From Grifola frondosa (Eukaryota > Basidiomycota > Agaricomycetes > Polyporales > Grifolaceae), in the NCBI GenBank assembly GCA_001683735.1, contig LUGG01000033.1, positions 310,001-374,000 on the forward strand: a stretch of 64,000 nucleotides of DNA, in the 5' to 3' direction. A program made the translations under genes and the position numbers. Positions 6,525-31,190 of this stretch are shown piece by piece. Below the pieces are notes generated by a model. That model made no database searches. It was not told where the DNA came from and was given only the letters and a program-made list of their open reading frames with translations. Within the stretch, counting starts at the first letter, position 1. Each line of letters begins with the position of its first letter.

Positions 6525-6675
6525 TGCATCAGCAAAATGTCGATTTGACTTATGGCTCTTAAATAACCCTTATGAACTTACTTTTAAGTCTTATTTCTCT
6601 TTTTTTCTTAATTAAGACCAATAAGAGCGATTAAGACGTAAAAGAGGTCTCATAAGGGTTTTTACATCAGCAAAA

Positions 6676-7160
6676 CATTTTTGGCCTGAGCAGACTGTAC
6701 ATACCCGTGCACACCCCAGAAGTGAGTGCACCAAATATATTTTCTTGCACACCACACTTGGTGTTTGGCAAGAACTGCCAGACAGTGCCAGCCACTGCAC
6801 CATATGGCCGGAGGCGTGCAATCAGAGCCCGGCCATTCCAAACTGGCGCTGTTCCTCTGATACGATAGGGCCAGGCACAATACATATCGGGCAAGACCTT
6901 CTATCGTATTGCCAGCCTCGGCGTGTGCCTGGCACCAATTTCCCCGGCATTAGCGGACATGAGTCCGGTCCTGTAAGATTGATGCCATGTCCCTGCCGCT
7001 TGCACATCTCGGTCCCCGACGCTTGCACGTCTTGGTCACGGAAATTAATATATTTAATTTGAATCACACAAACACCGATGGAGTCCACAAGAAATTTGAG
7101 CAACAATAGAAAGCACAAACAAAATTAATCACTGTCAAGAAAATATGCATGCTTCCGACC
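6676..7160. other. Plavaka left subterminal region, non-coding
   Basis: No supported gene. The sequence contains short GC-rich motifs such as CTGCCAGACAGTGCCAGCC and GGCCGG, with partners in the right subterminal region (TCTGCCAGATAGC, GTCTGGCCAGG near 14107-14142). Subterminal repeats of this kind commonly serve as transposase binding sites; that role here is inferred. Confidence 0.4.
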
Positions 7161-9188: not shown

Positions 9189-9498
9189 GTTGAGGTGAGA
9201 GAAAGCGAGGAGAAACTGAGCAAAGGCAGAGCAAAGGCAGAGGAAGGTTGTCGTATGGGTTCAAAGTCGTGGATCGCAGCATGCCAGCTCACCCCAACTT
9301 TTATACCTGTCGTCACTTGAAGGACGCGATCTTGACTGAACTTTAAGAACGCGGTCCCGTGACCATGTGAGTGCCCCGATTTTGACTTCAGTAACAAATT
9401 CGCTTACCCCACTATATGCGCGCTTACCCCGCTCGCGCTTACCTCGCTATATGCGTTTACTTCTCCTCCTCGTGTTGGTGTGTGCTCTCTCGATTTCT
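9189..9498. promoter_or_regulatory. divergent promoter region of the Plavaka element
   Basis: These 310 bp separate the two divergent start codons (9188 minus, 9499 plus) and must hold the promoters of both transposon genes. Near 9405-9455 there is a short tandem motif, GCTTACCCC/GCTTACCTCGCTATATGCG, repeated about four times. The function of the motif is inferred from its position only. Confidence 0.5.
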
Positions 9499-12400
9499 AT
9501 GAGAATACAATGTTCGGGCTGCCAGCGCGGGTTCAACGAGCTCCGCGGATTGAAACGCCACCGCCTATCGTGCAAGAAACTCTCCCAACAGCTACTTCCC
9601 CTGAAACATGACCGCGAACAGGCCCATCTGCGCATTTACGAGGGACGAGAATGTGCACGCAACATAAAATTGCTGCGGCTCGCGGACGAAAAGGCTGCGG
9701 AGGAGGAGAAACTCAGAGCCCAGGAGGCACGAGAGTACGAAGAGGTAAGCCGCAATAATGATTGAAGATAATAGAAATTCACATATATCACTATCAGCTT
9801 CAGGTTCAGGCAGCTGTCGTCACAGACATGGCTGTGGTCCATTCTGTCAGCAGGGTCGGACGTAAATGCAAGGCTCCCGAGGCGCTCAAAGACTACCTTC
9901 CAAGCTCTCTCACCGGTCTTCCCAGTTTCTTTGCCCAGCCTCCACCCAAGCCCAAGCACATGGCTAAAGCGCCACAGCCACCGAGTCCTGCGCGATCCCC
10001 TACACCTGAGCCACCTCCGTTACCCAAGCACATCCATACCCCACTGAACTCCTTCGGAGTATTTCGTCGCTATGTTGTTCAACCTGTCTCTGATCCCGAA
10101 GACATGCTCACCATCGAGCATTTCTCTGACTCACCCAACCATCTTCCCACCTCCATCGATACACAGCACTTGAGCCCACTGCGCGGCTTTGGGATTTCAC
10201 TTTCCAAAGCCGCGCAGAAGGCCAAGGACAACTTCTTCGCACCCTTCCTCAACGCCAGCACATTCAAATTGATGCGCTGGTATTACTCCACCTCACACTG
10301 CAAATCAGCATTCAACCTCGACCGCCTTGTCACGGAAGTGCTCTGTGCCGACGACTTCCATCCCGACGACCTTGAGGGCTTCCGCGCTGCCCGAGAGATG
10401 AGGCGCTTGGATGAATTCACAGATTCAAGCACTGCCTTTTCTGCAGCGGACGGGTGGCACGAGGAGTCCGTCAAGATCAAGCTGCCTCACAGTGGCACGC
10501 GCTGGAATTATGAGGACGAGGCACCAGAATTCGAGGTTAAGGGTGTATTCGTACGTCCTCTAATTGAAGTGATCAAAGCAGCCTTCCAAGACCCGAGCGC
10601 GCACGGCTTCCACTGGATTCCATTCAAGTATCTCTGGCAATCCGATCCTGTCTCTGGGCCAACTCCTCTGCCAGAACGCATTTATACCGACACCTACAAT
10701 TCGGATGCCATGCTCGAGGCCGACGCTGAAATTCGAGCACAACCCAGGAATCTAGAAGACTCGCCCGACATTGAATACTCCGTCGCTCCCATCCTCGTAT
10801 GGTCCGACTCCACCCACCTAGCGAGTTTCGGCACCGCATCTCTATGGCCCATCTATGCCTTTTTTGGGAACCTCTCCAAGTATACTCGTGCAAAGCCGCG
10901 CTCATTTGCAGCGCAGCATCTCGCATACATACCCAAGGTGCGCTCTCACTTATTTTCATCCGCAGAAAATTCTCTGTACATTCTAACGCTGCATTTTAGC
11001 TCCCAGGGTCGTTCCAACAACATTATCAATCCATATTCCAATCGCCTGCGACCGTAGCCATCCTGCGCTTTGTCAACCGCGAACTCATGCATAAAATCTG
11101 GCTCCTCCTGCTTTCTCCAGATTTTATGCATGCGTACGTGCACGGCATCTTGATCAAGTGCGGCGACGGGTCTTGAGGCGCATATTTCTGCGATTTTTTA
11201 CTTATTCTGCGGATTACCCAGAGAAGTGAGATTCCATCTGTTTACATAGTCGGCCTGACTAATTATTTTGTTTAGAATATTGCTCGCATGCATCCGGTAT
11301 CTTGCAAGATGCCCTTGTCTGGACTGCCATACGAAGAAGGTGTATGTGCCAGGTCTGGGCACTACTATAGATCGGCAGCGCCAAGCCAAGCATCGAGAAG
11401 ATACACAGGTCGTTCAAGACAAGATCGCCCTCATGCGCAAATGGATCTTCAAGGATGGCGCACCTGTGGAAGGAGCTTGGATCAATCGTAAGCTCGAAGA
11501 AACTTCCCTCACAACTACTCGAGTATGCATCTTCTTCAATTTTATGTCTCCGGGCTAATCACGTTGCTTTTACAGAGCGCATTCTCGATACGGTTGGCTC
11601 AATTCGGCTTCAATCACTACGAACTCTTCATGCCGGACCTCATGCACGAATTCGAACTCGGAGTATTCAAAGCAATCTTGATGCACACCATTCGTTTACT
11701 GATCGCTGCAGGGAACGACAACATTCAAGAATTTGACGAGCGGTGAGCTTCAATCTGTTTGCTTTGTTTGACTGCTCACTGATTTCTGGCGTGTTGCAGA
11801 TTTGCGCTCGTGCCCACATTTGGCCGCGATACTATACGCCGCTTTGGCGCGAACATCTCGGGCTTGAAGAAACTCGCTGCGCGCGACTTTGAGGACATTC
11901 TCCAGGTGCGTATTCACACATTTATATTCTATTCTGACTAATCTATGTACATCAGTGCATAATTCCGATTGTTGAGGGCCTATTGCCCGGCAAGCATAAT
12001 CGGATCGCGCTGGACATGTTCTTCGAGCTTACCCTGTGGCATGCACATGCTAAACTGCGTCTGCATACTGACTCTACCCTCCATCAATTCGAGCAGGCCA
12101 CGAAGACGATGGGCGCAAGTGTTTGGGAGTTCAAGAAGGTCGTCTGCGCCGCGTATGTCACGAAGGAGCTCCCGAAGGAGACAGCTGCATGGCAGAGACG
12201 ATCTGCAGTGCTCAGTGCCAAGACCAAGTCCGGGAAGGGCAAGGATCCTCCCAAGTCCTCCCAGGTTGCTGCGACGACAATGTCCGCCAAGCAGAAGGCT
12301 CCGTCCAACGACTGCGAAGACACTGAGGATGTGACATCCGCAGAGCCCAAGACGCCACTCAAGGACTCTGAAGATGCGAAGAAGGTGACACCCGCGGAGC

Positions 12401-13918
12401 GCAAGGTTCCTACATCTAGCAGACGCACGAAGGAATTGAACCTGAATACGTACAAATGGCACTGGCTGGGTGATTATGTCCACGCCATTCGCCGCTTCGG
12501 GACTACTGATAATTATACCACACAAATTGTGAGTGACTCGTGTGCATTTATCTTATTTCACTTACCTGCGACTACAGGGAGAGCTCGAACATCGACGGGT
12601 TAAACGCTTTTATGTACGTACGAACAAAAACACACAATTCCAGCTTCAAATTGCAAAGCATCAACGATGGGAAGCATACCTCCACAAGTTGCAGGATGGT
12701 AGCAATGCAACTCACAGAACCCAGCGGGCTAAACACAAACACGCCGAACACAAGAAGACTCGCGCGAAGAGGTATTGTCGGATGCATCTCCATTTCAAAG
12801 ACACGGAGACGCTGCCAAAAACATCCCCCGATTACATCACCACATCGCCGACAATCAAAGTAAATACGTGCATATTTCTGGGTTCGCGTCAGACCATCAA
12901 GATGATCCTGCGTGCAAGGTGTGTCAAAGTCGGATCAGTTTCTAATTGAATTTAACCTGTAGCTAGGATTTCGTATGAAAACTGGAGCAGCACATTCTGG
13001 CATGGATGACAGGCCGACTTTACGAAGATCCTCCTCCCAATTTTACAGACAAAGAGAGGGACACCCTGGTGTTGGACCAAGGACGCATGTATCTCCACAA
13101 GGTCCTGCGGATCAACTACATGACGTACGACATGCGCCGCGAGCAAGACACGATCAACCCGTCCACACACGCTGACATCATGATGCTCGCGCCGCATGAC
13201 AGCCATCACCCATTCCTCTATGCATGCATGTTTAGCGTGTTCCACGTCAATGCCTATCGAATTGGACCGGGATTCCCGAAACACCCGGAGGCGGAGCGAT
13301 TTGACGTGATATGGGCGCGTGGCCTGGAGCTGGACGAATCTGCCCCAGGAGGATTTGAGACGCGGAGACTGCATCGCGTCAAGTTCATTGACAGCAGTTC
13401 CAGAGACGTGTTCTTTTTTCTCGACCCGCAACAAATTCTGAGGGGCGCTCACCTCATCCCTGCCTTTCACTTCGGAAATACCGATGAACTTCTCCCCGGA
13501 CCGAGTGTGGCACGTCAAGGAGACGAGGAGGACAATGACTGGATGTATTTTTACGTTGGGATGTGAGTATTTTTAAATTTATTCCCGAATCTACTCTAAC
13601 AAGGTATTCTACAGGTTTTGCGACCGCGACATGTTCATGCGCTTCAACGGCGGGGGCATTGGGCACCGATCCGGCAGCAAACATTCCACTGCCGCAATGC
13701 CAAGGATTCAAGTGAACGTGGAAGAAGCCTTAGACGAGGATGAGGAAGAGGTGCAGGAGCTACAGGCGGACTTAGATTCCGAGAGCAGCCATGGGTCAGA
13801 AGGTGATTCTGATGCAGAGGACAATTCGAATGAAGAGCAGGGCTCTGGATCCGAGGACGGTGAGAACGTTGACGGGGATGGAGACGACGACAATTTAGAA
13901 GGCTTCGGAGCACTGTAG
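9499..13918 (+). pseudogene. Plavaka transposase (DDE class), about ten exons, disrupted
   Basis: Exons read 9499-9744, 9804-10937, 11000-11225, 11276-11522, 11576-11742, 11800-11905, 11956-12528, 12578-12918, 12967-13562 and 13615-13918. The N-terminus has a C2H2 finger (CSGCQRGFNELRGLKRH), then a Pro-rich linker. The transposase core has the hallmark blocks WSDSTHLASFGTASLWPIY, RELMHKIWLLLLSPDFMHAY, FFTYSADYPE, FMPDLMHEFELGVFKA, FGRDTIRRFG and TTDNYTTQ/GELEHRRVKRFY. The C-terminal part (RINYMTYDMRR, DRDMFMRF) precedes a long Asp/Glu tail. The acidic D residues in the first and fourth blocks are the likely catalytic ones. Breaks: one base missing near 11172, one missing near 12834, and an in-frame TGA at 12976-12978. 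Family assignment is from recognised sequence blocks. Confidence 0.85.
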
Positions 13919-14270
13919 TTTGCACAGTGTAATTGTAGTACCGGAATAAATATTTTTATTGTATACCGAACGGACGTCCACGCTATGGTATTGTACTGCA
14001 TACTATGTACTCTACATTCTACGTGATTACACGCACCTGTAGGACCGGCGCGATCTGCTGGGGCTTTGTACACATTTGGCAAGACGTCCGACGTCTGGTA
14101 GCCTCGTGGCCACCTCTGCCAGATAGCGCGCGTCTGGCCAGGTGCTGCAAAGACCACCGGACTTTCAAGTTTTTGCTGATGTAGCTGCCCAAATAAGTGC
14201 ATTTAAGTACGTTTAAGACACAAAAGTATGGTAAGTCAAATTGACATTTTGCTGATGTGGTGATAGCATT

Positions 14271-15321: not shown

Positions 15322-15836
15322 GATGGGTAAGGAGATGGTAGTCGGAGGGCTAGTCAAGGGGATCGGAGATGAGAATGTGAGGACGTCGAGGTCGATTCGA
15401 GTGAGATGGGCAAATGGAGAGTCAGAGTCATAGGGAGGGAGATCTGTAAGGTCCGAATCTTCGTAACCTTGTCGAAGTCTTAGCGTACGCGACGCAAAGG
15501 AATACGCGCAGCGCGCGAGTGTAACGGTCTGTCGATAGCGTAGAAAATATGGCATAAAATACCGGTGCGTACACAAAAATCAAGAGACACCTCAGCCGTC
15601 AAGGCCAGGGCTCATAACCTAACAACGTAGGTGATGCGACAGCGGAACGACTGAGTGACAAGACAAGACCGGAGAGGGAGCTGCAGTGACGCGGAGGTCA
15701 GCGGAATGCTCCAGGTGTAAAACTTTGTATTCATACCTGCAGTGACGCGGAGGTCACTGCATGACTTGTAAGTTTAATACAATGAAACAGAAGTAAGAAG
15801 ACGTACGCGGAATGCTCCAGGTGTAAAACTCTGGAG
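15322..15836 (-). repeat. Copia 5' leader and part of its LTR
   Basis: On the minus strand this precedes the gag start codon. It holds tandem subrepeats: CTGCAGTGACGCGGAGGTCA at 15681 and 15737, and GCGGAATGCTCCAGGTGTAA at 15701 and 15807. No gene is visible. The sequence stops at the left tip of the 15 kb element. Its continuation is expected at 30953, so it is probably an LTR split by that insertion, but I could not define the LTR ends. Confidence 0.5.
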
Positions 15837-15848
15837 TACATCAGCAAA

Positions 15849-16595
15849 ACTCGAACAACACTTTTTTGACTTATCCTGCCTGAAAAAAGACAACTTCAGA
15901 TGAATAAGTGGAATAAGTAGGTCCAATCCCTGATTTACCTTATTTCTGCCTGTTTCTTCGGTATCAACTGTAAGACCAGTCAGCAGAAAAGCAAAAATCA
16001 GGCAGTTTAAGAGAAAAACCCACTTTTGGAAATCAGAAATAAAATTCGCTCATAATTCGAAGGTTAACAGTCGCGCAAGTGCGAAATTAATTTAAAAAGA
16101 GAAAAAGTCGCCGCATGAGCCACTCATATCTCTCAGCAATTAAGGAACAGAGACACAGCAGTAGATTCAAAATTTCAGGCTAACAACAGAACATGCACTA
16201 TTAAGAGTGTCCAGGGCAACAAGATCAGAAAGGATCTTGTGTACGTGAAAAGCCGAAGAAGTCATCAAGAGAATCAGAAAGAAAGTAAAAGGCTGTAAGC
16301 GACACAGCATGCAAAAATGACGGCAGCGGAACAGAGTGGGGATTTTTCCTTCAGAAGAATAGAGCAGCATAGAATATAGGGCAGCATAGGGGTAGGGCAG
16401 CATAGGGGGTAGGGCAGGGCAGCATAGGAGGAGGGCAGCATAGGAGGTAGGGCAGCATAAGTAGATAGAAAAATAGAAAGAAGAGAGCTATAATATGAAG
16501 CAGCGGCTCGCGGCGCTGTATGCGCTTGCCGCTATGGTATCGGAGAATCTGATAAAGGTGAGTAAAAGATTGCTACGGAAAAAAATAGCCATACC
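15849..16595. other. left subterminal region of the giant element, non-coding
   Basis: No gene seen. It contains A-rich words (AAAAAGAC, GGAATAAGTAGG) like those in the right subterminal zone and a 16-bp minisatellite at 16362-16460, then leads to the 3' end of the accessory gene. Confidence 0.5.
16362..16460 (+). repeat. 16-bp minisatellite, about six copies
   Basis: The unit GGGCAGCATAGGGGTA (with A/G and length variants) is repeated in tandem about six times. It lies between the transposon tip and the accessory gene stop codon, so it could be part of that gene's 3' untranslated region. Confidence 0.85.
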
Positions 16596-19039
16596 TTAAT
16601 CGGAATAGTCCACGAGCATTGCGCGTTCTTCGTCCTCCTCCTCGTCTGCAATAACAATGGGATTCGTGACGCTGTCGATTACCTTCTGCAGCTTTTCAAC
16701 CCGCATTCCCTGAGCAGAACGGGCATACTGGCTGGTCTTCAAGCCGTATTTAAGCTCGGAGAATTGGTTGTCGACATTTGTCTTTTGGCCGGACCTTCGG
16801 TTTTCTGTTTTCGTCAAGTTGGTACCAGTCTTGTGCACCTCGACCTTCTGAGCGGAGAAGAGGTCGAAGGCGCGCTCGACCTACGAGCTTATTGAGATCA
16901 TCAAAGTTGTACAAGGGCTCTGAGAATTCTTACCGCAGCAGCTGCAATACCAATAGCACCAATCGGGTAGTTATCCTTGTTGAATAGACCAGGAACAGAG
17001 CTCAATCCCAGCCTCGTCAAGGCGAAGTGACGGCGGAGCGCGTCCGTCACAAAACTAGACCGAAAGAGTCCGCGGAATTTCTGAAATGATATCTTACTAG
17101 TAGATAAAGTGTGTCAATTATTAAATAATCATCACGTACCGTCTTGTCTTCCTCATTTAAAGGAGCATATTCCCAGAGAAAACGCAGGCCGTTGAGGATA
17201 TCCTTCGAATGCTCGGCGCGCGCAAGCCTGTTGTCCTTGAATCGATCGTCGGAGTTGAAGAACGCCTCCACAGATCCCATCGCAGCGTTGCCAATGTTGG
17301 AACGCCACTCGCAAAGCCGTTGACTTGCCTGCGAAGTCGAATTTGGTGAGTAGAATACAATTTCAAGTTACAGGATACTTACCGCTTGAATGTACGGTTC
17401 CAACGAGGCCGGTTTCACAACAGACGTATTACCATATACGGCTTCCCACGCTTTGTTCATGACTTCAATTGCTTCTGCGTCGGTGCCAATTGTCCACGGC
17501 TCTGTTGTGCTTGCCCTGTACTTCAGGATGGTCGAAAGCAAGACGCGCCAGCGCCCATTCCTCCTGAATTCGTCGGGAATCAACACCTTCTTCGATTTAC
17601 TATTTGGCGCCCGCTTTGAGCCTTCCTCCTCCGACTGTTCATCGGAATCGAGTACAATATCGATGACCTCCTCTTTGACGATGCCCTGTATGTACAAAGT
17701 GAGTTCAAGATGATATTAATTATGGAAAGCTTACACTGCTAGTCAGACGCTTCCCATTCTTAATCGGACTTGACCTTGCAGCATCTTGTTCGGCACATTC
17801 GTCTTCGCTTACGATGCCACCCTCGACGACCTTCATACCGGTAGGATTGGACACACTTTGGTGAGTCGGAGCTGCTCCTTTATATGCTGGGCGCGGTTTG
17901 GGTCGAACCGGCGTGGATACTTGCGTCTTGACCATTGCAGACACGACGGACCCCGACGAGCGCGAAGTAGTAGTAGTACCACTTTGCTTGCTATTAGGTG
18001 GACAAGACGGTCCCTGCCAGCTCGGGGTAGTACATTCGCTTCCTGATGACTTCCAGTCCTTTGTCATACCTGGACCGGACAGTGCGGCGACAGCTGGCGA
18101 CATCGCTTCCGTCGCCTTTTGGGGCTGTCTGCGAGAAAAGGTAAGTCTACAGTACATATTTCACAAGTAGATAGCTTACTTTTTTCTTGCGTTCGATTTT
18201 CCAGTTGTCTTCGCTGCATTCTGCGTGGCGTTCGATTTGCCAACAGATTTTGCTACACTCTGCGCGGCGTTCGATTTACCAACAGATTTCGCGGCATTCT
18301 TCGCGGCGTTCGATTTGCCAACAGTGCTCGGCGCTGCATTCTTCGTGGCGTTCGTATCTTTCTTATTCGAAGCAACTGTGGACTTCTTGGCTTTGGCTAC
18401 ATCGGAAACCCCGCGAGCGGCCTTGATTTGGTCCCGATGCACGACCTTCGCCTTCTTCGGTGGAGGGCTGGATTCATAGTCCGTTGCAAGTTCTGTTAGC
18501 TCAGTGTCGAAGCCACTAAGAACTTTTTGGTCATCAGCATCTGCATCGACCTCGACGACCTCCGTGCCATCGATGTCGTCAGCATCCTCGGTGTCAGCAT
18601 CCTCGCCGACGTCAGCATACTCGCCGTCGTCAGCGTCCTCACTGCCCTCACCGTCGTCGGCACCTTCATCATCCTGGATGCTGTCGTCGCCCATCTCAAC
18701 GTCCTCCTCGATAGGAGCACCATCTGGAGAGAGCGACCGTGCTCGCTTCTTCCCCTTGTCCAACTTCGACAAGTCGGCCACTGCATACGTTCGTACAAGT
18801 GGCCGCTCTATCTTCGGCTTGGTAACCCTGTTCACCTCCTGATCTGCGTCCGCAGAGGCCATGGCATCCTCTATAGCAGCAAGGTCTTTTGCCGCTTTTC
18901 TAGCGGCTGCATTGGCCTTTCGCTGGACCTGCTTCTCAGCCTCCTTAGCCTTTTGCACCTCTTGAGTGCTGCGACGTGGCTTTTTCGCATCCGGAAGGCC
19001 AGGATGCTTACTTCCGTTGGAGGGTCGAGTATTAGCCAT
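16596..19039 (-). CDS. KDZ-associated accessory protein, 725 aa, apparently intact
   Basis: Six minus-strand exons (19039-18180, 18128-17735, 17685-17393, 17338-17140, 17080-16934, 16880-16596) join in frame with clean GT-AG borders to give 725 codons and a stop. The start MANTRPSNGSKHPGL is the first ATG that gives a sensible N-terminus. Residues 1-110 are basic with coiled-coil-like Lys/Ala/Glu runs (AEKQVQRKANAAARKAAKDL). An acidic stretch of Asp/Glu follows (about 130-195), then Ala/Lys repeats built on GKSNAA. The C-terminal third has the blocks GRWRVLLSTILKYRAS, ASQRLCEWRSNIGNAAMG, LRFLWEY, GLFRSSFV and PIGAIGIAAAAVERAFDLF. I recall such proteins next to KDZ/Plavaka transposases in mushroom genomes; their function is unknown. 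The head-to-head partner is the transposase. Confidence 0.75.
18180..18335 (-). repeat. in-gene repeat encoding VGKSNAA-type 14-residue units
   Basis: Three to four copies of a 42-45 bp unit encode variants of VGKSNAAKNAAKS within exon 1 of the accessory gene. The product is Lys/Ala-rich and probably disordered or helical, and may contact nucleic acid; that is inference. Confidence 0.75.
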
Positions 19040-19272
19040 GGAAGCGAGGAGGATATGAAGAGTTGTGTGAGGTGGAAAATTTGGTACGTTGACATGGTAT
19101 GCTGCCACGAAAGCTAGCGCTAAAGCGGTGTCTTTCATTTCACGGCAGGACTTGATGCCGTTAATGCGATTGGACGGCTCTCAACTTTACAGATCGTACG
19201 CACCGCAACTTAACTCAAAAAAAAATTCCCCAGCCTACATCTTGCCTACGCGCTCAACTGTTCGTCTCTAAG
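19040..19272. promoter_or_regulatory. divergent promoter region of the giant element
   Basis: Only 233 bp separate the accessory gene start (19039, minus) from the transposase start (19273, plus). Both promoters must be here or overlap the genes. An A-rich AACTCAAAAAAAAATTCCCC lies about 60 bp before the transposase ATG. No specific site is recognised. Confidence 0.5.
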
Positions 19273-21261
19273 ATGCCAAGAAACCCTTCGTCAAAGTCTA
19301 CACGTCCAAGACGACTCGCGAGCGACCCTCTGCATCTTCGCTGCCTTGTTATATCCTGCAAGAGATGGTTCAAGAATGCATCTGGCCGAACGAAGCACAT
19401 GAGAACTCACCATCATGCGGACTATTGGGATGCTGCTGAATCCCATCGTTATGCCGAAGCAGCAGCTATTATTGAGGAGCGAGAGTCCTCAATCCGTGAG
19501 TCTACTAATAGTTCTACATACGCTTTACTATCCACTAACCTAGAACTTAGAGCGAAGCGACGTTTTTGAGATGGATGAGGGGGGGATCAGCATTATGAAG
19601 AAGATGTGGACATGGAAGTAGATGAGGACAGTCGTGGGTACGATCAAGAAGCGGACGATCTTGAACGCCCGGCATTCGACATCGAAGCACACGAGAATGC
19701 TCGTGGGCACGACCAAGAAGCGGCAGCGGACAACCTTGAATACCCATTGCCCGACGTCGCAACAGAAGATAATGGCGGCCAAGACAATCAAGAAGACCTG
19801 GATTATCCTGAGTATCCGGAGGAGGAGGAGATCCCTGAACACTTGCCGGGTATGCATGAGTACGCCGACATGGATCCGGAGGGTTTAATCAGAGTATATC
19901 ACGAAGGCCTTGATGGTGCGTACGATTGAATTCTTGCCTTGTATCTAAGACTGATCATCAGCAGGCCGACCTTGCGATGAAAACGGACTGGACTTACCAC
20001 CAGGAACACCTCCAACGCTTCCTCCGCCCCGGCGCTCTGACGATTGGACGCCGTATAGCAGCCGGGTTGAGTACGAGACGGCGCACCTTCTCTATACAGT
20101 CGATCAAATGCCAGCCAAGAATATTGACTGGCTTCTCAGCCTGTGGCGAACCACGCTTTTGAAGTATGGCGAAGACGGACCATTTACAAACCATAAAGAC
20201 CTGTATCGAACAATCGACTCCACACTCCTCGGAGACGTGAAGTGGGAATCGTTCGAGTTGAAGTACTCTGGTAATGTCCCTGACCACGACGTACCATCGT
20301 GGATGAACGCCGTCATACGATGTATGGTTTCGTGATCCCCACACTGTTGTACGAAACATGCTGGCGAATCCTGAGTTCAAAGATGAGATTGACTACGCGC
20401 CGTTTCGCGAATTTTACGAAGGCGAACGCCGATTGAAGGATTTCATGTCCGGCGATTGGGCGTGGAAACAAGCCGTGAGTAGAAAGTTCTTCTCTAATGA
20501 CAGAGTGCTCAACTTAGATTTTTCCAGACTGACATTGCTGAGGATCCCGCAGCAAAGGGCTCCGCCTTCGTGCCAATCATTCTTGGTAGCGACAAAACTA
20601 CGGTGTCTGTTGCGACAGGTCAGACGGAATATTATCCCCTATATTTGTCAATCGGAAACGTTCATAATAATGTACGTCGTGCGCACCGCGGTGCGGTTGC
20701 ATTAATCGGATTTCTCGCAATACCCAAAAGTACGTTTAGATAGCTATTAGTATTTGTAGAATTTGACTTACTCACAAGCTATATTCAATCCAGCTGATCG
20801 AAAATACGCAAGCGATCCTCACTTCAGAAAATTCCGTCGACAATTGTTCCATTCCTCTCTATCGCGAATTCTACGATCACTCAAGTCCGGAATGACTACC
20901 CTGAAGTTGTACGCTGCGCCGACGGACATTTCAGACGAGTAATATACGGCCTTGGTCCGTATATTGCGGACTATCCTGAACAAGCACTTCTTACTTGCAT
21001 CGTGCAAGGCTGGTGTCCCAGGTATGTCTACTTCTACGCCATTTGATTAGTTACTGACTTCGAGATGATGCAAAGATGCACCGCAGATAATACTGATCTT
21101 GATGGTTCAGAAGCCGGTCGTCGCTCGCGCGATCATACTGAAGCACTTGTCCTTCACTATGAACTGGGGGTCCTTTGGGACGAATACGGACTGGTGGGAG
21201 ATATTGTAGTGAGTTTAATCTTGCCTGCTCTTGCTTCTTTTCTCTTTTGTTGTTGTGCGTA

Positions 21262-21950
21262 GGATCTATCCGAAAATGGAAATGCATGATTGTATCTCCA
21301 TTTTCGGAAGACCGTGATCGTTGTTCTGTCCTCTCCATGACTGGGAAGATGCACCCCAAAATAGTTGAACACAGCGGTCTCGGACTTAACTAGAAATCAT
21401 CTGATTGGGACGTCAAGGTGAGATTGATTCATCTGACTTATCTAGTATATTAATGAAAACGTCGTTGCGCCATCATTCTCCAAGGTTTTGGAACTTAGAA
21501 CATTTCAACTCGAACTTCTGTCCTATAATAATAGCGGGAACAGTGTCTTATACTGAGGGTACGCTCCGAGATTCAACCAGAATACTCACATCAATCTAAT
21601 GTGGCGATACATCACAGCTTCCTTTCCCAACCTCTGTTGTGTTCGTATCAATGCCCAATGCCGTTCATGCATCTTAGTGCCGCTAAATCGGCAAGCGCGT
21701 TCAAGGAGCCATGGCTAGGACACCTAGCATGAGCTGTGGCCGAACATGCTAGCCTCTATCTTCTTCTGTCGCGGGCCTTCAATTCTGCCTCGTTAGGCAC
21801 ATTCAGCAGTCAGCAATCATGTAGCAGCACTGAGGTAACTTCCCTTTAAATCCACTGTTCGACATTTCTCACGATGCCACTGTAACTAACACAGGATCGA
21901 TCAAACCTTTCTCAATTCCACGCTCTCTTTCTACTATCACAACTGCTCTG
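21262..21950 (+). other. foreign DNA in the swollen transposase intron, no gene recognised
   Basis: A normal-looking intron end (TTGTTGTTGTGCGTAG) is followed by about 690 bp in which I find only short open frames and no recognisable domain. It may be 5' flanking DNA of the captured transcription-factor gene that follows. Confidence 0.4.
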
Positions 21951-21959
21951 CCTTGCAAA

Positions 21960-24200
21960 GTCTCTGCCTCTCCGCACCTGAATATGTCGCTTATTCAATC
22001 CTTCCGTGCAATGACCTCCTCTCCATTGCACCATGTGTCGTCGATGGAGGAGGTCCTTCTCGCACCCGGGCCAAGCGTCAACAAACTATACTTCCCTGCC
22101 AGCGTGTTTGGTTTTTCAGGAAAGTTAGGGCTTTACCTAGCCCAGAGAAGGTCGAGTATCTGGACTGCAATCTTGCGGACAAGATGGGGAGCGGGTGCCG
22201 TGTGTTGTGATCGTGGCGTGCTAACTTCCATGTTAGGTGGATGCACATTTTGCACGATTCCACTTCCTTATGCCAATCATCGACAAACCGTCGTTCATGC
22301 GATGATACACGTTCCTAATGGATCATCGGAACGATCCTACTCTCGCCAAGAAACAGACCGCTTTTATTGCGCTTGTATGCGCTGTATTCGCAGTTGTGGC
22401 ACGCCTTGTGGAAGATCCACACTTATCGAAGGCTGATAACCTGGACGATGCCGGGATGGGCATGGTTTATTAAGAACGGTAATCGTATTCAGTTGCGATG
22501 ATCTGTGGCATCCTACTAACACCCGTTCAATCAGAGCGTTAATTTTACACTATATCAGCCATGTATCCATGCAGGTCGAGCATGTGCAGTGCTTCCTGCT
22601 AATGTCCTCATTCTTATGTTCCGTCAATTGCCTACCGCAGGCTTGGCTCCTCGTTGGACAGGCGGTGCGATCCGCTCAAGATATAGGTCTTCATGTGGGT
22701 ATCGCTCCGAATCAGTAGTCTAATTGGCTCACTTCTTGCTCGTCTAGCGATCTCCCCGTCGACTGCTTATCTCTCCCATCGAGAAGGAAACTCGCCGCAA
22801 GGTCTGGTGGGGAGTGTATACTCTTGATCAGATGTTGGCACTTGCATTCGGACGTCCTCTAGCTATTGAAGACGCCGATTGCGACGTCGAGCTAGCGGTA
22901 GAGATTACGACGAGAATCTCCCGGAGTATTTCTCAGGCGCGGCGATATCTCGCGACTCGCCGTCGTTGATGCGCGGATACGTGGAGCTGATCTCACTCTA
23001 CAAGATCGCCGGACAGGTTTTGCGCCAGGTGTATGCGCTCGACAAGTGCAAGGACAATCTCGAGTTAGAGAAGTGCACGGAGCTGCAGCGCGCAGTGGAC
23101 TCGCTCGACAAGAGTCTTACGAAGTGGTGCGACGACCTGCCGAGTATCTTCAAGTCGAATCCTATCACCGAGAAGCAGGTCACGATGGCTGCCGTGCTGT
23201 GTAGCCATTACTACTCTATCCTGACGACGTTGCGCCGAAACTTCTTACCTGTTCGGCGCGACCAGCCGATTGCCCCCGCTCGACAGCGAACGCCGTCTCC
23301 ACCGCCCGAGCGTGCATCCGCTTGGCGCCTTCTATCAAGGCCGTCGTTCCCCCGAACCACCATCTCGCTTTTTTCATTCAGAATCTTTTTAGCTCTGTGC
23401 TCATCATATTACTCTACGCAATGCACGCCACGGATCCAACAGCCTCTCACACTGCCATGGACGAAGCTAAGAGCTGCCTGACATGCTGGAGATCTGGGAG
23501 GGGCACTGGGCTGGGGCATGGAAGTGCAAGGAGCTGCTCGAGGACCTGACCGCGACAGTCAGTGAGGCAATCAAAGTTGCTGCAATGGGCATGTGAGGGT
23601 GTCTTCCAACGCATCATCCTCGGCGTCCCCTGCATCGTTTTATCGGATGGGAGGATGTCCGCGCCAATCTCGGTCACTGTCTCCGAGTGGCTCGTCAAGA
23701 GTAGGCCCCGGAAGAATTGGTCGCGTGATGTTCATCTGTCTCCCGGCAGGCACAGGCCACGCAGTTTCGTCCCGAGTGTGAGTGCTATTCCGAGACTTTT
23801 TGCGCCTTCACATGATATTCACGGTCGGCCCTAGCACTCTGTGTGAGGTCGACGTCCCGCAAATGGCCCCATGATGAGGACCTATTCTCAGATCCATACG
23901 CTATTGACCTGCCAAGCTCATACCTCAGCTGGTCGAACCTCAGTGCACACAGCTCTCCTGTATCCATGAATAGTCACCCATCGCCTCCTGAACAATCACT
24001 GGATGCTCAAGAACTGCGCCCCAGATGGCGTCCTCGTCTTCCTACAGCCCATTGAACATCCCCCAGTCTACGGCTGCTCCAGTGCCTCACGCGCATTTCG
24101 ACTATGATTATGGCTTGTCCCAGAGTCCATCCGAGAGGTGGAATGGTCGAGCAGGATGCCGCCCCTCCGGGATTGTGCATGCACCCAGTGCACGAAGCCC
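21960..24200 (+). pseudogene. captured fungal-type transcription factor (Fungal_trans family), degenerate
   Basis: Across several exons and frames this reads as a Zn2Cys6-type regulator. A degraded cysteine cluster with linker (PSPEKVEYLDCNLADKM) lies near 22040-22190. The Fungal_trans middle homology region follows: DAHFARFHFLMPIIDKPSFM, TAFIALVCAVFAVVARLVEDP, CFLLMSSFLCSVNCLPQAWL, VRSAQDIGLH and KVWWGVYTLDQMLALAFGRP (near 22800-22865). A helical C-terminal part runs at 22890-23590, and a Ser/Pro-rich tail at 23590-24150. Introns are retained, so it arrived as DNA, not cDNA. A stop codon replaces a residue in YYERAL (near 22470) and there are frameshifts, so no working factor is made. It lies entirely within one intron of the transposase, same strand. 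Confidence 0.7.
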
Positions 24201-26049
24201 ATCTCTTTGATATTCTGTTTAGCCATTTTTTCTTCTACTCCACATATTCTCTTGCATGCGATAACTTACCACATTCCCTTGACAGCCATTCACGAACGAT
24301 TTTCCTCGCGCTGACATACATGAACTTATCGCGCCCGATATCCTACATCAATTGATCAAAGGTACATTCAAAGACCACCTTGTTGACTGGGTGGAGCAGT
24401 ATCTAGTTCAAACGCACGGAAAAAGTCGTGCGCAGCACATTTTAGCGGATATCGATCGTCGGTGAGTGTCTTGTCATATTTTATCACCTTAAACTGAAGG
24501 TGTAAATGTATTTGTAGCATTGCTGTAGTGCCCCCATTTTCAGGCTTACGAAAATTCCATGAAGGACGCGGATTTAAGCAATGGACCGGAGACGATTCGA
24601 AGGCGCTCATGAAGGTATTTACCCTTATCGTCTTTAAAGTATTTACCGAGTTTTAATACCCATTGCAGGTTTATCTTCCTGCGATTGTTGGTCACGTTCC
24701 TAGAGAAATGGTTCGCGCTATTCGCGCCTTTCTCGAATTCTGCTACATTGTTCGACGGAACGTTCATACACCGAAGAGCCTACGTGCGCTGCAAGATGCT
24801 CTGGATCGATTCCATCATTACCGAACCATCTTTCAGACCACCGGTGTCCGCCTAGAAGGGTTCTCCCTTCCTCGGCAACATTCTCTTGTACATTATCAAT
24901 CACTCATCTGGGCATTTGGCGCTCCTAATGGTCTATGCTCTTCAATCACCGAATCAAAGCACATCGAGGCCGTCAAGGAGCCCTGGCGGCGATCGAGCCG
25001 CAACGAGCCTATGGGTGAGATATTGCTAACTAATCAACGAACTGATAAATTGGCAGCATCGCACGTGGACTTTAAGGAGCGGCAAATGCTCAACGGATCA
25101 TGTCTGTCTGAAATGATCCTTTCGCTCGGTAAGACATTACCATTTTAAAGTTTTTGTTTAAGGTATAATATGCCATCAGCACTAGATGCCGACATTGATC
25201 CTGCTCTCCAACCACTTGAAGAAGCTGAGATTTTGCGTGAAGCTGGCCGCCGGGAAAACAACGACGCTGATGATGGCGCAGTACCCGGTCCAACTGTTCT
25301 TTCTTACGTGGTCATGGCAGCAACCATTCGTGAGTGTTCATCTTGTTTCGAATATTGATATTTACATGTGCCGCAATATGTTCTGAATAGAGAGAAAGCA
25401 TGCCCGTCTTGCCGAACCACTTGGCATTGAAATTGGGCAACCACGCCTTCCTGAACTCATTCGTAGATTTCTGTACGACCAGTACAACCCGACGAGCGAT
25501 CTACCGGGGCTAGAAGTCCCGCTCGATGAATGTCCGCGATTCAAGGAAAAAGTATCCGTATTCTACTCTGCCGCCGCAACCTACTACGCACCTAGTGACC
25601 CCTCGGGCACTGGGGGAATGCACAGGGAGCATATCCGAGCGACACCGCTGTGGTGGGGGACTGCGCCACGATTTGACTGTATCTTCGTGAATCGTGATGC
25701 AGATATTGACGGATTTTTAGGTCTTGGAGTGGCAAGAGTTCTACTCTTCTTCTCATTCACATTTAACGACATCCGCTATCCATGTGCACTCGTGCATTGG
25801 TTCAAGCGAATTTCTGATGAACCCGATGAAGACACCGGCATGTACATCGTGAAGCCCGAGACCAAGCGCGGGTCACCTGTCATTTCTGTAATCCACTTGG
25901 ACTCAATCGTTCGAGCTGCACACCTAATTGGTGTCTACGGAAGCATGTGTATTCCAACTAATCTTCGAAATTATCAGTCACTCGACGCCTTCCGTGCATT
26001 CTATGTTAACAAATACGCTGACCATCATGCCTTCGAAACCATCTTCTAA

Positions 26050-26255
26050 CTTCTTATGCTCTCTTGCAACTGGTCAGTTGTAACTCTAAAGTATGCACTC
26101 TTTTCCTCTTCGTGACGTTCACTGAAGATTTTACATAGTTTGACAAGCATTCTGACGCTACCGATCCTTTTTTCTTACCTGAATCGCCGTTCGTTCTGTA
26201 TGCCTTTTGATATGATGATCTGCAGCTCACAATGAATTTCTAGTCGTCATCTTCT
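26050..26255. other. transposase 3' flank, no gene seen
   Basis: About 200 bp between the transposase stop and the first captured exon. It contains A/T-rich stretches that could include the transposase polyadenylation signal; nothing specific is identified. Confidence 0.4.
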
Positions 26256-26707
26256 GGGTACGGGAAGGGAGTCCGAAGCTCGAAAGGTAGTGGCGGAGCT
26301 GAATGGTGTGCCAGAAGACGATCCAGTTGTGGTGGATATTGTAGAAGAGCTGGAGGTTGGTATCAAGGCAGAGAATGAGGGAAGCAAGTCGACGTGGATG
26401 GAGTGCTTCTCTGCGCGCAATGGTCTCTGGAAGAGGACAATAAACGGTATGGTGCTGCGGTTCGTCCGGCAGTTGAATGGACAGAACTTCTACTGTGAGT
26501 ATCTTGTGCAACGATGTCATGCCTCATGTTGACGATCTTCTCTCAAACGCTCAGACTACTACGGCAATACGTTCTTCAAGAGTGCTGGAACAACGTACGT
26601 GGATTACCACCAATATCTATTTCATTCTTTGCTGACAACGTATGTGTACGCTCAGCCCATCCACCATTCAGGCCATCCTCGGAGGCGTGTCTGTGGTTGG
26701 AACAGCA
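26256..26707 (+). pseudogene. captured fragment of an MFS sugar transporter
   Basis: Three consecutive exons (about 26256-26493, 26555-26597, 26656-26707) encode part of a hexose-transporter-like protein: ELNGVPEDDPVVVDIVEEL, STWMECFSARNGLWKRTING, MVLRFVRQLNGQNFY, YYGNTFFKSAGTT and STIQAILGGVSVVGT. This corresponds to the large cytoplasmic loop and helix 7 region of fungal sugar porters, where the QLNGQNFYYYYG-type motif is characteristic. Both ends of the gene are missing. The introns are retained. It runs straight into the amidohydrolase piece near 26740. Confidence 0.85.
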
Positions 26708-26756
26708 TACTTTCCTATGGCTCGCTTTCATGATTTATAGACTCGCCCTTCGCTCA

Positions 26757-27963
26757 AACCTACACGACTACTACCTCGCCATCAATCTCCCTCCCCGCGC
26801 AGCCGCCACTCTCTCTCACTGCAGGTCTCTCCATTCGCCTCCAGGCCCATCTTCCAACTTCGCTGCCTGGTACCAGGCCCACTCTCCTACAGAATGCCAA
26901 GGTCTGGACAGCCCAGCAGAACGGCACCGAAGTCATCCTCGCCGACATCCTGCTCGACAATGGCCTCATTAAAGGCATCAGGCACGTCGGTTGTGCAGCC
27001 ATAGAGGCCTACAACGACTTGGTCGTGATCGACTTGAAGCTTGCATGGGTTATGCCTGGGTAGGTACTTGCACGCGGCTCTGCAGCATTCTTGTCTGATC
27101 CTCACGCTTCTGCAGAATAGTAGACCTGCACTCGCACCTCGGTGACACATCCAGTCCAGAACTAGACGGTGCCAGCGGCGACGACAACTCCCTCAAGGGC
27201 CCCGTCCGACCGTGGCTACACGCACTGGACAGCTTGAACATGCACGACGAGTCCCACGCGCTCTCCATTGCAGGCGGCGCCACAACTGCGGTATGTGATT
27301 CTCCGTGAGACCTCCAACCTCACAGCACTCACCCTCCATGACAGCTGGTTCTCCCAGGATCTACCAATGCCATTGATGCGCACCTCATCTGCGTGTTTAT
27401 GCCTGTCCTTTGCTCGGCGGGCAGGGCTTCACGATCAAGTTGCGCAAGACACCGGAGCGCTCGCCCTCCTCGATGCTCCTCGAGCCGCCATATAAAATTA
27501 ACACCTCGTTCCTCGAGGCCGGAGGCAACCCACGGTGGCATCAGATGAAGTGAACAGTCTGTCCACATATTTGATGTACCTCGCTTAATGGGTCATGTAG
27601 ACATGCATGCATTCCATGTGACAGTAGAAGCGATCGTCAAGCTAACGCTTCTTCGAATTCGCATAGGGCGGAACCACAGTATGTCTTGCTCACTTCTAAT
27701 TGTATTTGGATTCACGGGTCTGGATAAATAGGCTGGGTGTATGGACAGACGCACCATCTAGGGTTTCCGCGAAACGTGAGTGCAGTAAATCCACAAATCT
27801 GCTGAGCTCGCTCAACGTTGCGTCTGGTTAGCTATAACAAGGCGCGGGAGATCAAAGAGGCACAGGACCAGTACTGCGCAAACGCTCTTAGAGGGGACTG
27901 GGATACGCTGACCACCACCGCTTTTCCCGAGGATATCCAGATGCTCGGTCTCGTGAACGCAGG
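26757..27963 (+). pseudogene. captured fragment of an amidohydrolase (metal-dependent hydrolase)
   Basis: The frame near 26860-27060 gives the beta-sandwich start of amidohydrolases (LLQNAKVWTAQQNGTEVI, LADILLDNGLIKGIRHVG, LAWVMPG). The next exon has the metal-binding H-x-H motif in VDLHSHLGDTSSPELDG, then PVRPWLHALDSLNMHDES and IAGGATTA. Further exons give IKLRKTPERSPSSMLLEPPY, VYGQTH-like sequence near 27740 and YNKAREIKEAQDQYCANAL near 27830-27890. The catalytic C-terminal half is absent. Several frame changes make it non-functional. Same strand as the transposase. Confidence 0.8.
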
Positions 27964-27984
27964 GTGCGGCAGTGGCTGACAAGT

Positions 27985-28530
27985 GGAGAATTACTTACGG
28001 GAGACGTTGAGGGCTGTGCAGAACAAGACTGTGCAGCATGGCGCGGCACTACGGCTGGGTGTCGCAGGTATGGGAGGGAAGAATGCGGAGGCCTACGACG
28101 ACCTGAAGGAGACACTGTTCGCGGATTCCACCGTCGCGGGAGAGGCCATCTGGTTATGCTATGGGTCTGATTATGCTCGGTACCGCGGATGCCACTAGCG
28201 CAGAGGGGATGTTTATGTATACGCGCCAGACTTGGCACGCGAAGATCATTCATAGTCACTATTGGTCTGGCTTTCATCTTCTACGGGAGACAGGAGGAGG
28301 CGGACGACATGGTGAAATCACTCATGGCCGAGAAGGTAATGTAGATGGACTATCAGACTCATTTTAGACTTACCAATCCTTTCATAGGATCCCATCTTGC
28401 GATATGGCGGACCTATACACTCGCGCTTGCGTCCGCTGGTACCTCAAACAATGACGTTGTCCGCCAACTATTGCATATCGCAGTTTCGGACACGTCTGAC
28501 GATGTCGGACGGTGGACAGTGGCTGGCCCG
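27985..28530 (+). pseudogene. RPN2: captured fragment of 26S proteasome subunit RPN2, first piece
   Basis: The sequence encodes PC-repeat (proteasome/cyclosome repeat) exons of the base subunit Rpn2/PSMD1: VENYLRETLRAVQNKTVQHG, LRLGVAGMGGKNAEAYDDL, KETLFADSTVAGEA, GLIMLGTADATSAE, then DPILRYGG, AGTSNNDVVRQLLHIAVSDT and SDDVGR. In the cell Rpn2 scaffolds the proteasome base; this is only an internal part and carries frame changes. It breaks off mid-exon near 28530 and resumes near 29700. Confidence 0.85.
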
Positions 28531-29700
28531 CATGCTCACGGTCATCATCATCCCCGAGGTGGAGCTCGTCATGGTCCGCACCCTGCCCCCAATATCCGTC
28601 TCCCCGAACTCCAGCCCAAACCTGCCACTCATGCGCTCCATCTCCTCCATCTCATCCTCTCTACCAGCACAGTGGAGCCCAGCGTGGAGCGGAGGGCGTG
28701 CCCATACAGCATGCTCGCGCTGCTCCACGCGGTGCTCCCGGCCTTGCTGATGTTCCCTGGGGCATTGATATTCGTCCGCAAGGGTGCATCGCTCGTTGCC
28801 GCCCATTGTTTGCTGAGCAACCTCTCCCCCTTCCAAGCCTCCCCGACCGGTCCTGGTGGGCGTGCCCTTCTTCTTGCCCCACACCCACCGAGCAACATAC
28901 GCTCCACCGAGGGCGGCACGGACAGGGAAGCCAGTAGCGGGTGCATTCCCGTGCGGCACAATCTGTTCCGCGTCGATTTGCGTGGTGGGCACCAGCATGG
29001 GTGCGTTGAACACGCCGCCCTCGAGGTTGGCTATTGACGGGAAGTTCGCCGCAGCGCCTGTTGCCAGAATGCGGGAGGGCAGCGGCGCGTAGTCATACGG
29101 GTCGAACGGCAGGCCCATGGTGTTGCTGTTATTTGTCGGACGTTTCTGTTGGCCGCCGGAAACAGGCCGTATAGCCTATTCCCCCTCTGGCCCAAGACGC
29201 AAGTGAAAAGAGACAATATGTTGCCATGTTGACCAGCAGGTGAGTGCGGATTTTCTTGTGTGGTCAGATATAATCATTGTGCTGATGGACATGCAGGAAC
29301 GCGGACGCGCCAACAGCCCTTGTGCGTGACATGTACACCAAGAGCTGGCCTTCGTATCGTCTCATTGCCATTGCCCCTCCGGGCGGGTCAATAGGGTATG
29401 TTATTGAATTTATCATCGAATCCGTGGCTGCTGACCATCGTCTATAGTCTGGATGACAAGCTCTTCAGTTTCTGGTTACTCCAAGGCGATAGCTACCCGT
29501 TCTCGCACGTCAAGGGCATCTTTCGCTTTCAAACCGGTGTCAAGGTCAACGAGTTCCGCGACCTCCGCGCGAATCCATGATGTCTCCTCGAGAGCCAGAT
29601 TCTCTCATTCCGCGTGCGCCGGCCCCACGTCATTGCCACAGGTGTCCTCGGCGCGAGTGCTGGGCGCGTGCGCACCAGCCACTCCTTGTTGGAAGGAAAT
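28531..29700. other. insert splitting the RPN2 fragment (unidentified gene pieces)
   Basis: About 1.17 kb separates two halves of one RPN2 exon. On the minus strand 29118 to about 28700 encodes a plausible N-terminus (MGLPFDPYDYAPLPSRILAT, GFPVRAALGGAYVARW), and frames down to 28531 continue a related reading (GSTAWSSASMLYGHALRSTL). On the plus strand 29298-29580 encodes two short exon-like pieces (LVRDMYTKSWPSYRLIAIAP and DDKLFSFWLLQGDSYPF). I recognise neither. They may be further captured host fragments. No transposon tips are evident at the edges. Confidence 0.5.
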
Positions 29701-30290
29701 GTGGGACGGGGGCAAGCAGAGCGGCAGTCACTTCCCTAGCATTCTTGGTCTTCAAAAATCCGTGCTGTTCCACGAATTGTCCAGCTCTTGAGCGAGAGCT
29801 ACAATCCTTATGTGCGCTGCGGCGCGACCCTTGCCTTAGGTATTGCTTGTGCAGCACAGGCTTGGAGGTACGATCACACCTTCCTGTTAGCGTCATCCAC
29901 TTATATATCGCACCTTTCCGTACTGCAGGATGCAATCGAGATCTTAGAGCACATGACGAAGCATACTGTAGACTTCGTTCGTCAAGGCGCTTTCATCGCT
30001 CTCGGCATGGTCCTCGTCGAGCAATCCGAAGCGTCATCTCCACCTCTGGCTTCCACACGCGCACTGTACCAGAAGATCATTTCTGACAAGCATAAGGACC
30101 CAATGGCTTGTTTCGGCATACCCCTCGGACAGGGGTTGATTGATGCTGGTGGTCGAAACGTCACAATCAGTCTTCAAAGTAGAGCCGGAAGCCGCAATAC
30201 CAGTGCAATTGTGGGCATTGTTTTGTTCTGCCAGTTCTGGTACTGGTATCCTCTAGCGCGCCTGCCTTGCATTCGAGCCCACGGGTAGAG
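29701..30290 (+). pseudogene. RPN2: captured fragment of 26S proteasome subunit RPN2, second piece
   Basis: Continues the first piece at VTSLAFLVFKNP, then LSESYNPYVRCGATLALGIA, QDAIEILEHMTK, DFVRQGAFIALGMVLVEQSE, ASTRALYQKIISDKHKDPMA, GQGLIDAGGRNVTISLQSRA and NTSAIVGIVLFCQFWYWYPL, which is near the C-terminal end of Rpn2 proteins. One intron (about 29870-29930) is retained. Recognisable tail sequence after 30360 (PKFGF-like, then FAYLPPV-like) is degraded. Confidence 0.85.
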
Positions 30291-30940
30291 TCTTAGCGGC
30301 GACTTCCAGGTGAGCAGACGAGTTGTCCGACAATGGGAAATGACTAAAATTAAGTTGTTGTTTTCTAGGCATCTAAATTTGGCTTCATCTCAATGCCAAA
30401 CCTAGCTTGTTTGCCTACCTCCTGTGATGAAATCACCGAAGGAAGAGGCCGTGGCAAGGGAAACAGTCAATTTCAGCGAACACTCCGAGAAACAGGCGGA
30501 TTGCATGGATATGGCAGACGGTACAGTTTGAAAATTGATTTACATCTTTGAAATACATACCAGGATTTCCAGCCTTTGTAGAGGAATAAGTCGTCGTCAG
30601 TACATCAGTTGGCGGTGAGGGCGGGTAAGCATAACAAGCGCAGAAGTGCGCTTCGGTTTTCTTTTTCTGTGGTGCTGTTATTCCTTAAATATCTCTTACA
30701 TGCCTGTGCGGTCTGACGAGCACTCAGGAGTCCAGAAAAAAAGTACTTGTAAGACGCCACAGCGAGCCCAGGAGGCTCAGAATTCATTTTGACTGTTACC
30801 ACTTTTATCCTTAAATTCTCTTATTTGAGCTGTAACACCTGAATTTCACTCAGAAAGTCATTTTTTCGCCTCTCTTATGTGCCTGAAATGCCTGATCAAG
30901 CTTATATAAGGCAAAAAAGTCGAATAAGCAGGAATTGGGA
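30291..30940. other. right subterminal region of the giant element
   Basis: No intact gene. The first 200 bp may hold the decayed RPN2 tail. The remainder is A/T-rich with words (TTAAATTCTCTTATT, AAAAAAGTCGAATAAG) that mirror the left subterminal zone, ending at the TTTGCTGATG tip. Confidence 0.5.
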
Positions 30941-30952
30941 TTTGCTGATGTA

Positions 30953-31190
30953 TCCGGTACTCGTTAAGCTACTTAAGTAGAATAGAGTCGTCTTGTAAGG
31001 TAATCGGGATGCAAGACATTCAATGGAACAAAACAACAAAGAGAACAATACAAACAAGAGAAAGTCGACCGTGCGTGTATTGTAAACACACCGTACAATA
31101 ACGAAGTCTCAGATTGCAACAGTCTCCTCATACTACTCGCACTCCCTTCAATCACTCTTATCGTCTGCCTCGCACTCTCAAGTTGACTTT
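30953..31190. repeat. probable continuation of the Copia LTR beyond the giant element
   Basis: No gene. If the 15.1 kb element inserted at TA in the Copia LTR/leader (break at 15836), this sequence should be the far part of that LTR. It is A/C-rich with no coding potential. I cannot confirm the LTR edge; a terminal TG/CA near 31190 is not evident. Confidence 0.35.

Follow-up and report, generated by a model that had tools for sequence, protein, structure and literature searches.

A PlavakaB-like transposon of Grifola frondosa carrying copied fragments of five unlinked host genes

How do parts of several unrelated host genes come to lie between the ends of one transposon? The question is raised by a stretch of 64,000 nucleotides of Grifola frondosa (the window; C28:310001-374000, where C28 denotes contig LUGG01000033.1), in which a 15,112 bp transposon occupies positions 15839-30950. 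A first-pass annotation, made from the window sequence alone, described it as a KDZ/Plavaka-type element with captured pieces of a Fungal_trans regulator, a sugar transporter, an amidohydrolase and proteasome RPN2. We followed up this description by searches of the genome (39.06 Mb, 64 contigs; a single genome). We consider it probable that a PlavakaB-like transposon acquired host DNA on several separate occasions and was later moved, together with this cargo, by cut-and-paste transposition.

The boundaries of the element were determined from a second copy and a related empty site. The 10-mer CATCAGCAAA is found at 15839-15848 on the plus strand and at 30941-30950 on the minus strand, with TA flanks on both sides. 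The 10-mer alone is weak evidence (15 window sites with at most one mismatch, 6.1 expected), and the inverted tips match exactly over only 10 bp, with looser agreement beyond. The outermost 462 bases on the left and 451 on the right, used as queries against the genome, identified copy 2 at C28:244476-259587 on the minus strand, 99.7% identical, the alignment covering window positions 15837-30954 and ending there. The outer flanks of the two copies are unrelated and TA is present at each side of both sites. Further, a related empty site (C28:302081-302476) joins the counterpart of 15619-15838 (98.6%) to that of 30950-31127 (98.3%) with a single TA; this site, some 24 kb away from the first insertion, is another copy of a repeat and not the other allele. 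The ends of copy 2 together with the empty site therefore establish the boundaries independently of the 10-mer. Copy 2 interrupts an open frame (EF-hand-like by eye), and a paralogue at C28:280421-280616 reads through the insertion point, with a frame change further along. A gene family arranged in tandem units of about 10 kb extends over window positions 34000-64000 and the upstream contig, and copy 2 interrupts one of its members.

Positions 15839-30950 are one mobile DNA transposon that has moved with all of its cargo as a unit, apparently recently. The first-pass annotation had proposed a single element from the matching tips and TA flanks and had suggested looking for further copies and empty sites, both of which were found; the tips do not belong to two different elements, as copy 2 ends at the same ones. 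The two copies differ by substitution at 20 sites; every change is a transition, and 19 lie at CpG, with the remaining one beside a 5-bp indel (binomial p 2e-16 for 19 of 20, ordinary CpG hypermutability not being allowed for). Substitution almost only at CpG is what CpG methylation of the element would lead one to expect. The alignment of the copies further contains 28 indel columns, part of which may be assembly errors, and these columns, as well as the repeat-rich area, could be taken to mean that the mosaic is an assembly artefact or an ordinary segmental duplication between unrelated tips. However, two sites carry the whole arrangement with exact ends, a related empty site exists for one of them, and a diverged relative on contig C25 shares part of the mosaic, so that we give this explanation practically no credence.

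The window element is composed of the following parts, with parent loci and identities given for captured pieces.

15837..15848, plus strand: TA target duplication (15837-15838) and left tip CATCAGCAAA
15849..17046, plus strand: left non-coding part of the transposon
17047..19180, minus strand: series of opposite-strand open reading frames (ORFs), a possible second element gene, 73% conserved in a relative on C9
19165..21208, plus strand: 5' exons of the Plavaka transposase gene, from Pfam Plavaka matches and Grifola protein alignment
19165-19569, plus strand: zinc-finger-like ORF in the 5' exons, sub-threshold match
21209..24285, plus strand: transposase intron of 3.1 kb containing the Fungal_trans fragment, exon ends from protein alignment
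21984..24146, plus strand: Fungal_trans regulator gene fragment, from C3:1459717-1461881, 92%
24286..26049, plus strand: 3' exons of the transposase gene, from Grifola Plavaka protein alignment over 24286-26046
26169..26705, plus strand: sugar transporter gene fragment, from C18:447201-447734, 88%
26705..27940, plus strand: probable amidohydrolase gene fragment, from C19:490120-491412, 86%, family label weak
27943..28509, plus strand: RPN2 fragment, first part, from C1:1944529-1943962, 90%, with a 52-bp intron kept
28512..29718, minus strand: fifth fragment, nested in the RPN2 piece, from C7:526297-525076, 86-91%
29164..29685, plus strand: inverted inner part of the C7 fragment, C7:525108-525632
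29715..30459, plus strand: RPN2 fragment, second part, from C1:1943964-1943207, 89%
30460..30940, plus strand: right non-coding part of the transposon
30941..30952, minus strand: right tip (complement of CATCAGCAAA) and TA target duplication (30951-30952)

Host DNA accounts for about 6.45 kb (43%) of the transposon and comes from five loci on five contigs. Window positions 16300-30500 were searched against the genome (38 of 60 candidates scored), and subsequent base-level alignment to the intact host genes gave the parent loci and the capture breakpoints. For each of the four pieces named in the first-pass annotation, the scored candidates include a single parent locus (86-92% identity). The scored matches to the fragments fall at the parents and within the element itself, with RPN2 and C7 matching in the C25 relative as well; none was a tipless duplication elsewhere. 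The captured Fungal_trans ORF by itself reaches 13.1 bits (Pfam cut-off 23) and the captured RPN2 ORF 25.5 bits (HEAT_2 cut-off 27.7), and the fragment identities therefore rest on the parents. Here the parent frames match Fungal_trans at 3e-19, Sugar_tr at 4e-12 (in a part of the transporter gene outside the captured piece) and RPN2 at 4.5e-80 against a solved subunit and 4e-60 against the yeast protein. The amidohydrolase is only probable, its label being weak (E 0.01 and E 0.06). The first-pass annotation named four donors and missed the fifth, the C7 piece at 28512-29718. This gene is conserved with many relatives in a protein search, several JGI entries being labelled xylulokinase, a label on which we do not rely, and it had no Pfam match. 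The RPN2 piece is in two parts because the C7 fragment sits inside it. All four named donors lie in the transposase sense, as had been noted, and the C7 piece is antisense apart from its inverted inner part.

The joints between the pieces are tight. Transporter and amidohydrolase pieces (C18/C19) have 1 bp in common at their joint, the steps from amidohydrolase to RPN2 and from RPN2 to C7 contain 2 bp and about 2 bp of filler, respectively, and the return from C7 to RPN2 shows a 4-bp overlap with one mismatch. No target duplications were seen at the inspected fragment joints, and the edges of the C7 piece within the RPN2 piece are free of transposon sequence. All five donor genes are still in place and the parent loci run on past the breakpoints; capture was therefore a copying process. 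A base-by-base check showed that the RPN2 piece retains a 52-bp GT-AG intron, which rules out capture via RNA. Capture of host DNA at the DNA level is thus supported, as the first-pass annotation had argued from retained introns, with retention seen base by base for this intron and through continuous genomic alignment for the other pieces.

Tight joints between unlinked sources also bear on the route proposed for plant Pack-CACTA elements, where neighbouring insertions excise aberrantly and yield a hybrid element with host DNA between them (PMC13317346). Plavaka has been grouped with CACTA (PMC12730594), and such a route could account for a single contiguous piece, for example the first RPN2 capture. 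It would however require separate neighbouring insertions at five unlinked loci, would not easily produce a C7 piece nested in RPN2 without transposon borders, and sits poorly with transporter and amidohydrolase pieces from two contigs abutting within 1 bp. We regard it as unlikely for the window element.

Related elements in the same genome carry fewer layers and indicate part of the order of capture. The C25 relative is diverged (82% in the transposase and 86% at the right end, with 89% over the last 451 bases taken by themselves). Its RPN2 piece extends to C1:1945621 and is longer than that of the window element; it contains C7 DNA at the same RPN2 position, not inverted, and in 30 kb no match to the C3, C18 or C19 parents was found. 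In the window element the amidohydrolase piece borders on RPN2 at C1:1944529, from which it follows that no less than 1.09 kb of RPN2 has disappeared in that lineage. The C25 RPN2 piece additionally holds a 624-bp insertion (C25:187319-187942) with no other match among the matches listed. A left-half relative on C9, 80% identical to the first 462 bases of the window element, has 1.07 kb where the window has 3.13 kb around the Fungal_trans piece, and no match to the Fungal_trans parent in 30 kb. In case of a further Plavaka on C32, the same transposase intron is only about 70 bp long. This element shows a Plavaka-like left tip from C32:235666 onward, nested repeats and a Plavaka transposase 24 kb later; its right tip was not found up to C32:270000.

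The C9 and C25 pieces both break off at one point of the element, where C25 abuts a repeat and C9 comes close to its contig end; CT lies outside the tip in both. We infer that they are halves of one older copy. The repeat (C25:176850-185037, at least 8.2 kb) interrupts the older relative and has about 26 near-full-length copies, 26 of 38 matches covering nearly the entire query. An instance of CATCAGCAAA at C25:177441 was considered as the left tip of the C25 relative and rejected, as it lies in this repeat of at least 8 kb and the C9 piece is the likelier left half.

Because the C25 relative has C7 within RPN2 and lacks the transporter and amidohydrolase pieces, an order of events can be proposed. 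RPN2 DNA would have entered 3' of the transposase gene, followed by insertion of C7 DNA into the RPN2 piece, after which the window and C25-relative lineages would have split. In the window lineage, transporter and amidohydrolase pieces would then have taken the place of 1.09 kb or more on the 5' side of the RPN2 piece, the inner C7 segment would have inverted, and the Fungal_trans piece would have entered the transposase intron, no relative order being implied among these three events. Breaks or gaps inside the element, for instance after excision, may have been filled during repair with copies of unrelated chromosomal sequence, made by template switching or in templated end joining, and ordinary transposition would then have carried the element plus cargo.

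The fate of the cargo was assessed by comparison with the parents. Of 502 CpG sites in the parents, 123 read TpG or CpA in the element; in the opposite direction the count is 66 of 437 (p 4e-5). By codon position, parent and fragment differ as 68/43/113 (1062 codons compared), and the fragments have 4 new stops and 27 gapped codons. The frames were picked by eye, and one C1 segment probably begins in non-coding sequence; omitting one wrong-frame segment (C19 segment 960-1148, which has a stop in the parent) gives 60/40/109 over 999 codons and 3 stops. Rates at positions 1 and 2 near half of that at position 3 point to one neutral and one constrained lineage rather than two constrained ones. 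This pattern, together with the premature stops, speaks against horizontal transfer, in which capture would have happened in another species and the loci found here would be orthologues of the donors. The parent identity of only 86-92%, set against 99.7% between the copies, would suit such a transfer, but a related C9/C25 element is also resident in the Grifola genome and we judge the idea improbable. Cargo kept as useful, for example as a chimeric gene or a regulator of the parents, appears more doubtful still, indeed very improbable: four of five donors lie in the transposase sense, which is not significant at n=5, against premature stops, gaps, a near-neutral codon-position pattern, excess CpG loss and no in-frame fusion of captured pieces by eye in the ORF list. 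The captured pieces appear to be passive and to decay roughly like pseudogenes, with no sign of function found in these comparisons.

With tips reading 5'-CATCA..TGATG-3', a 2-bp target duplication (TA at both copies, a single TA in the empty site) and a Plavaka transposase, the element fits PlavakaB in these features, that group being described by such ends and 2-3 bp duplications (Kojima 2025, PMC12730594). Pfam Plavaka (PF18759) matches two ORFs above cut-off (1e-7 and 1.7e-18), and Grifola Plavaka proteins align across 19762-21208 and 24286-26046, with up to 93% identity in one exon; the ORFs of the 3' exons have no Pfam match on their own, and neither do the opposite-strand ORFs at 17047-19180. 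The transposase has 2649 matches among 7996 scored candidates, and the named relatives among the 120 matches listed are from mushroom-forming fungi. The gene is present in full extent, but its reading frame appears to be broken in each assembled copy, at one place seemingly in both; assembly errors are possible. Helitrons have neither terminal inverted repeats nor target duplications, and the inverted 10-bp tips and TA duplication exclude the element from that group. The Plavaka half of the ‘KDZ/Plavaka’ label is borne out and the KDZ (Kyakuja, Dileera, Zisupton) half is not. A Pfam scan of 10 element ORFs (E up to 0.1) contained no KDZ family, and the 2-bp duplication differs from the 7 bp of Kyakuja and 8 bp of Zisupton (PMC12730594). 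According to the same source, Plavaka has no sequence similarity to KDZ and is grouped with CACTA/EnSpm, Mirage, Chapaev and Transib.

The window contains other mobile sequences. A short repeat of 214 bp, split into 6527-6664 and 14182-14257 and bearing the same CATCAGCAAA tips, encloses a second Plavaka at 6665-14181 (Pfam Plavaka 2.8e-11); several other copies of this repeat exist at 95-99% identity. ORFs at 1637-3814 resemble, by eye, retrotransposon reverse transcriptase/RNase H, integrase and chromodomain.

The sequences themselves show that DNA was copied from five loci, how the pieces are joined and nested, in part the order in which they came, and that everything moved as one unit; we infer the repair step, and several points weigh against stepwise uptake by repair. 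End-joining of stray fragments would give similar joints, and the joints compared at base level are those between captured pieces, not the outer ones to transposon sequence. The CpG polarity is uneven, with 6 versus 6 changes in the first RPN2 part and 11 versus 9 in the inverted C7 part, two of seven pieces thus having little or no excess. The apparent frame breaks make self-mobility doubtful, and the window element may depend on transposase produced elsewhere. Finally, the second window Plavaka (40 of 175 candidates scored) showed no evident capture, and neither did 20 kb of C32 among the matches listed (16 of 17 and 27 of 205 scored), so that a standing capture habit would be conjecture. 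We hold only tentatively, and with more doubt than belief, the broader notion that mushroom Plavakas are a general gene-collecting system, in which copies of unlinked host genes would time and again fill breaks inside the element. Under that notion, newer captures would overwrite or nest in older ones, and the element would go on transposing because cargo is tolerated in the transposase intron and 3' of the gene. If true, capture would here proceed through repair and differ from the tandem excision proposed for plant Pack-CACTA.

Gene capture by cut-and-paste elements is established for Pack-TYPE elements (PMC8903248), hAT elements (PMC6710886) and Plavaka (PMC12730594). The window element resembles PlavakaB of mushrooms in its ends, 2-bp duplication and transposase, and some Plavakas carry a TET/JBP gene (PMC12730594). 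In contrast to those, which keep the enzyme gene, the window element holds decaying, layered fragments of five unlinked genes. The first-pass annotation knew of no standard description of capture by such elements; the TET/JBP case qualifies this, and for multi-donor capture by Plavaka no report was found in the open-licence literature, as far as titles, abstracts and the papers cited here show. Pack-CACTA and Pack-TYPE elements (PMC8903248, PMC13317346) are likewise Class II, with a transposase of a related group in the grouping of Kojima (PMC12730594), and the window element shares their defining arrangement of host coding-gene fragments between Class II terminal repeats. They are however plant elements of a different transposon lineage and by definition non-autonomous, whereas the window element also holds a transposase gene of full extent, with apparent frame breaks, whose intron carries cargo. 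The hAT elements with histone H3 in Pseudocercospora and relatives (PMC6710886) are similar as fungal cut-and-paste elements with a copied host housekeeping gene and decaying copies; they involve one gene, hundreds of copies and decay by repeat-induced point mutation, compared with five donors and two near-identical copies here. Helitrons of Pleurotus ostreatus (PMC4289320) are also mushroom mobile elements with non-transposon genes, but move by rolling-circle transposition. How cut-and-paste elements take up unlinked gene fragments is an unsettled question, and a 2026 review considers that an undiscovered mechanism may exist (PMC13317346). In Grifola, one genome keeps the parents, the joints, a nested layer, a relative with fewer layers and an empty site, making capture order and joints directly readable. 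While capture by cut-and-paste elements is itself known, layered capture from five donors by a Plavaka looks new, and the window element would extend multi-gene capture to Plavaka, with the many relatives that its transposase has.

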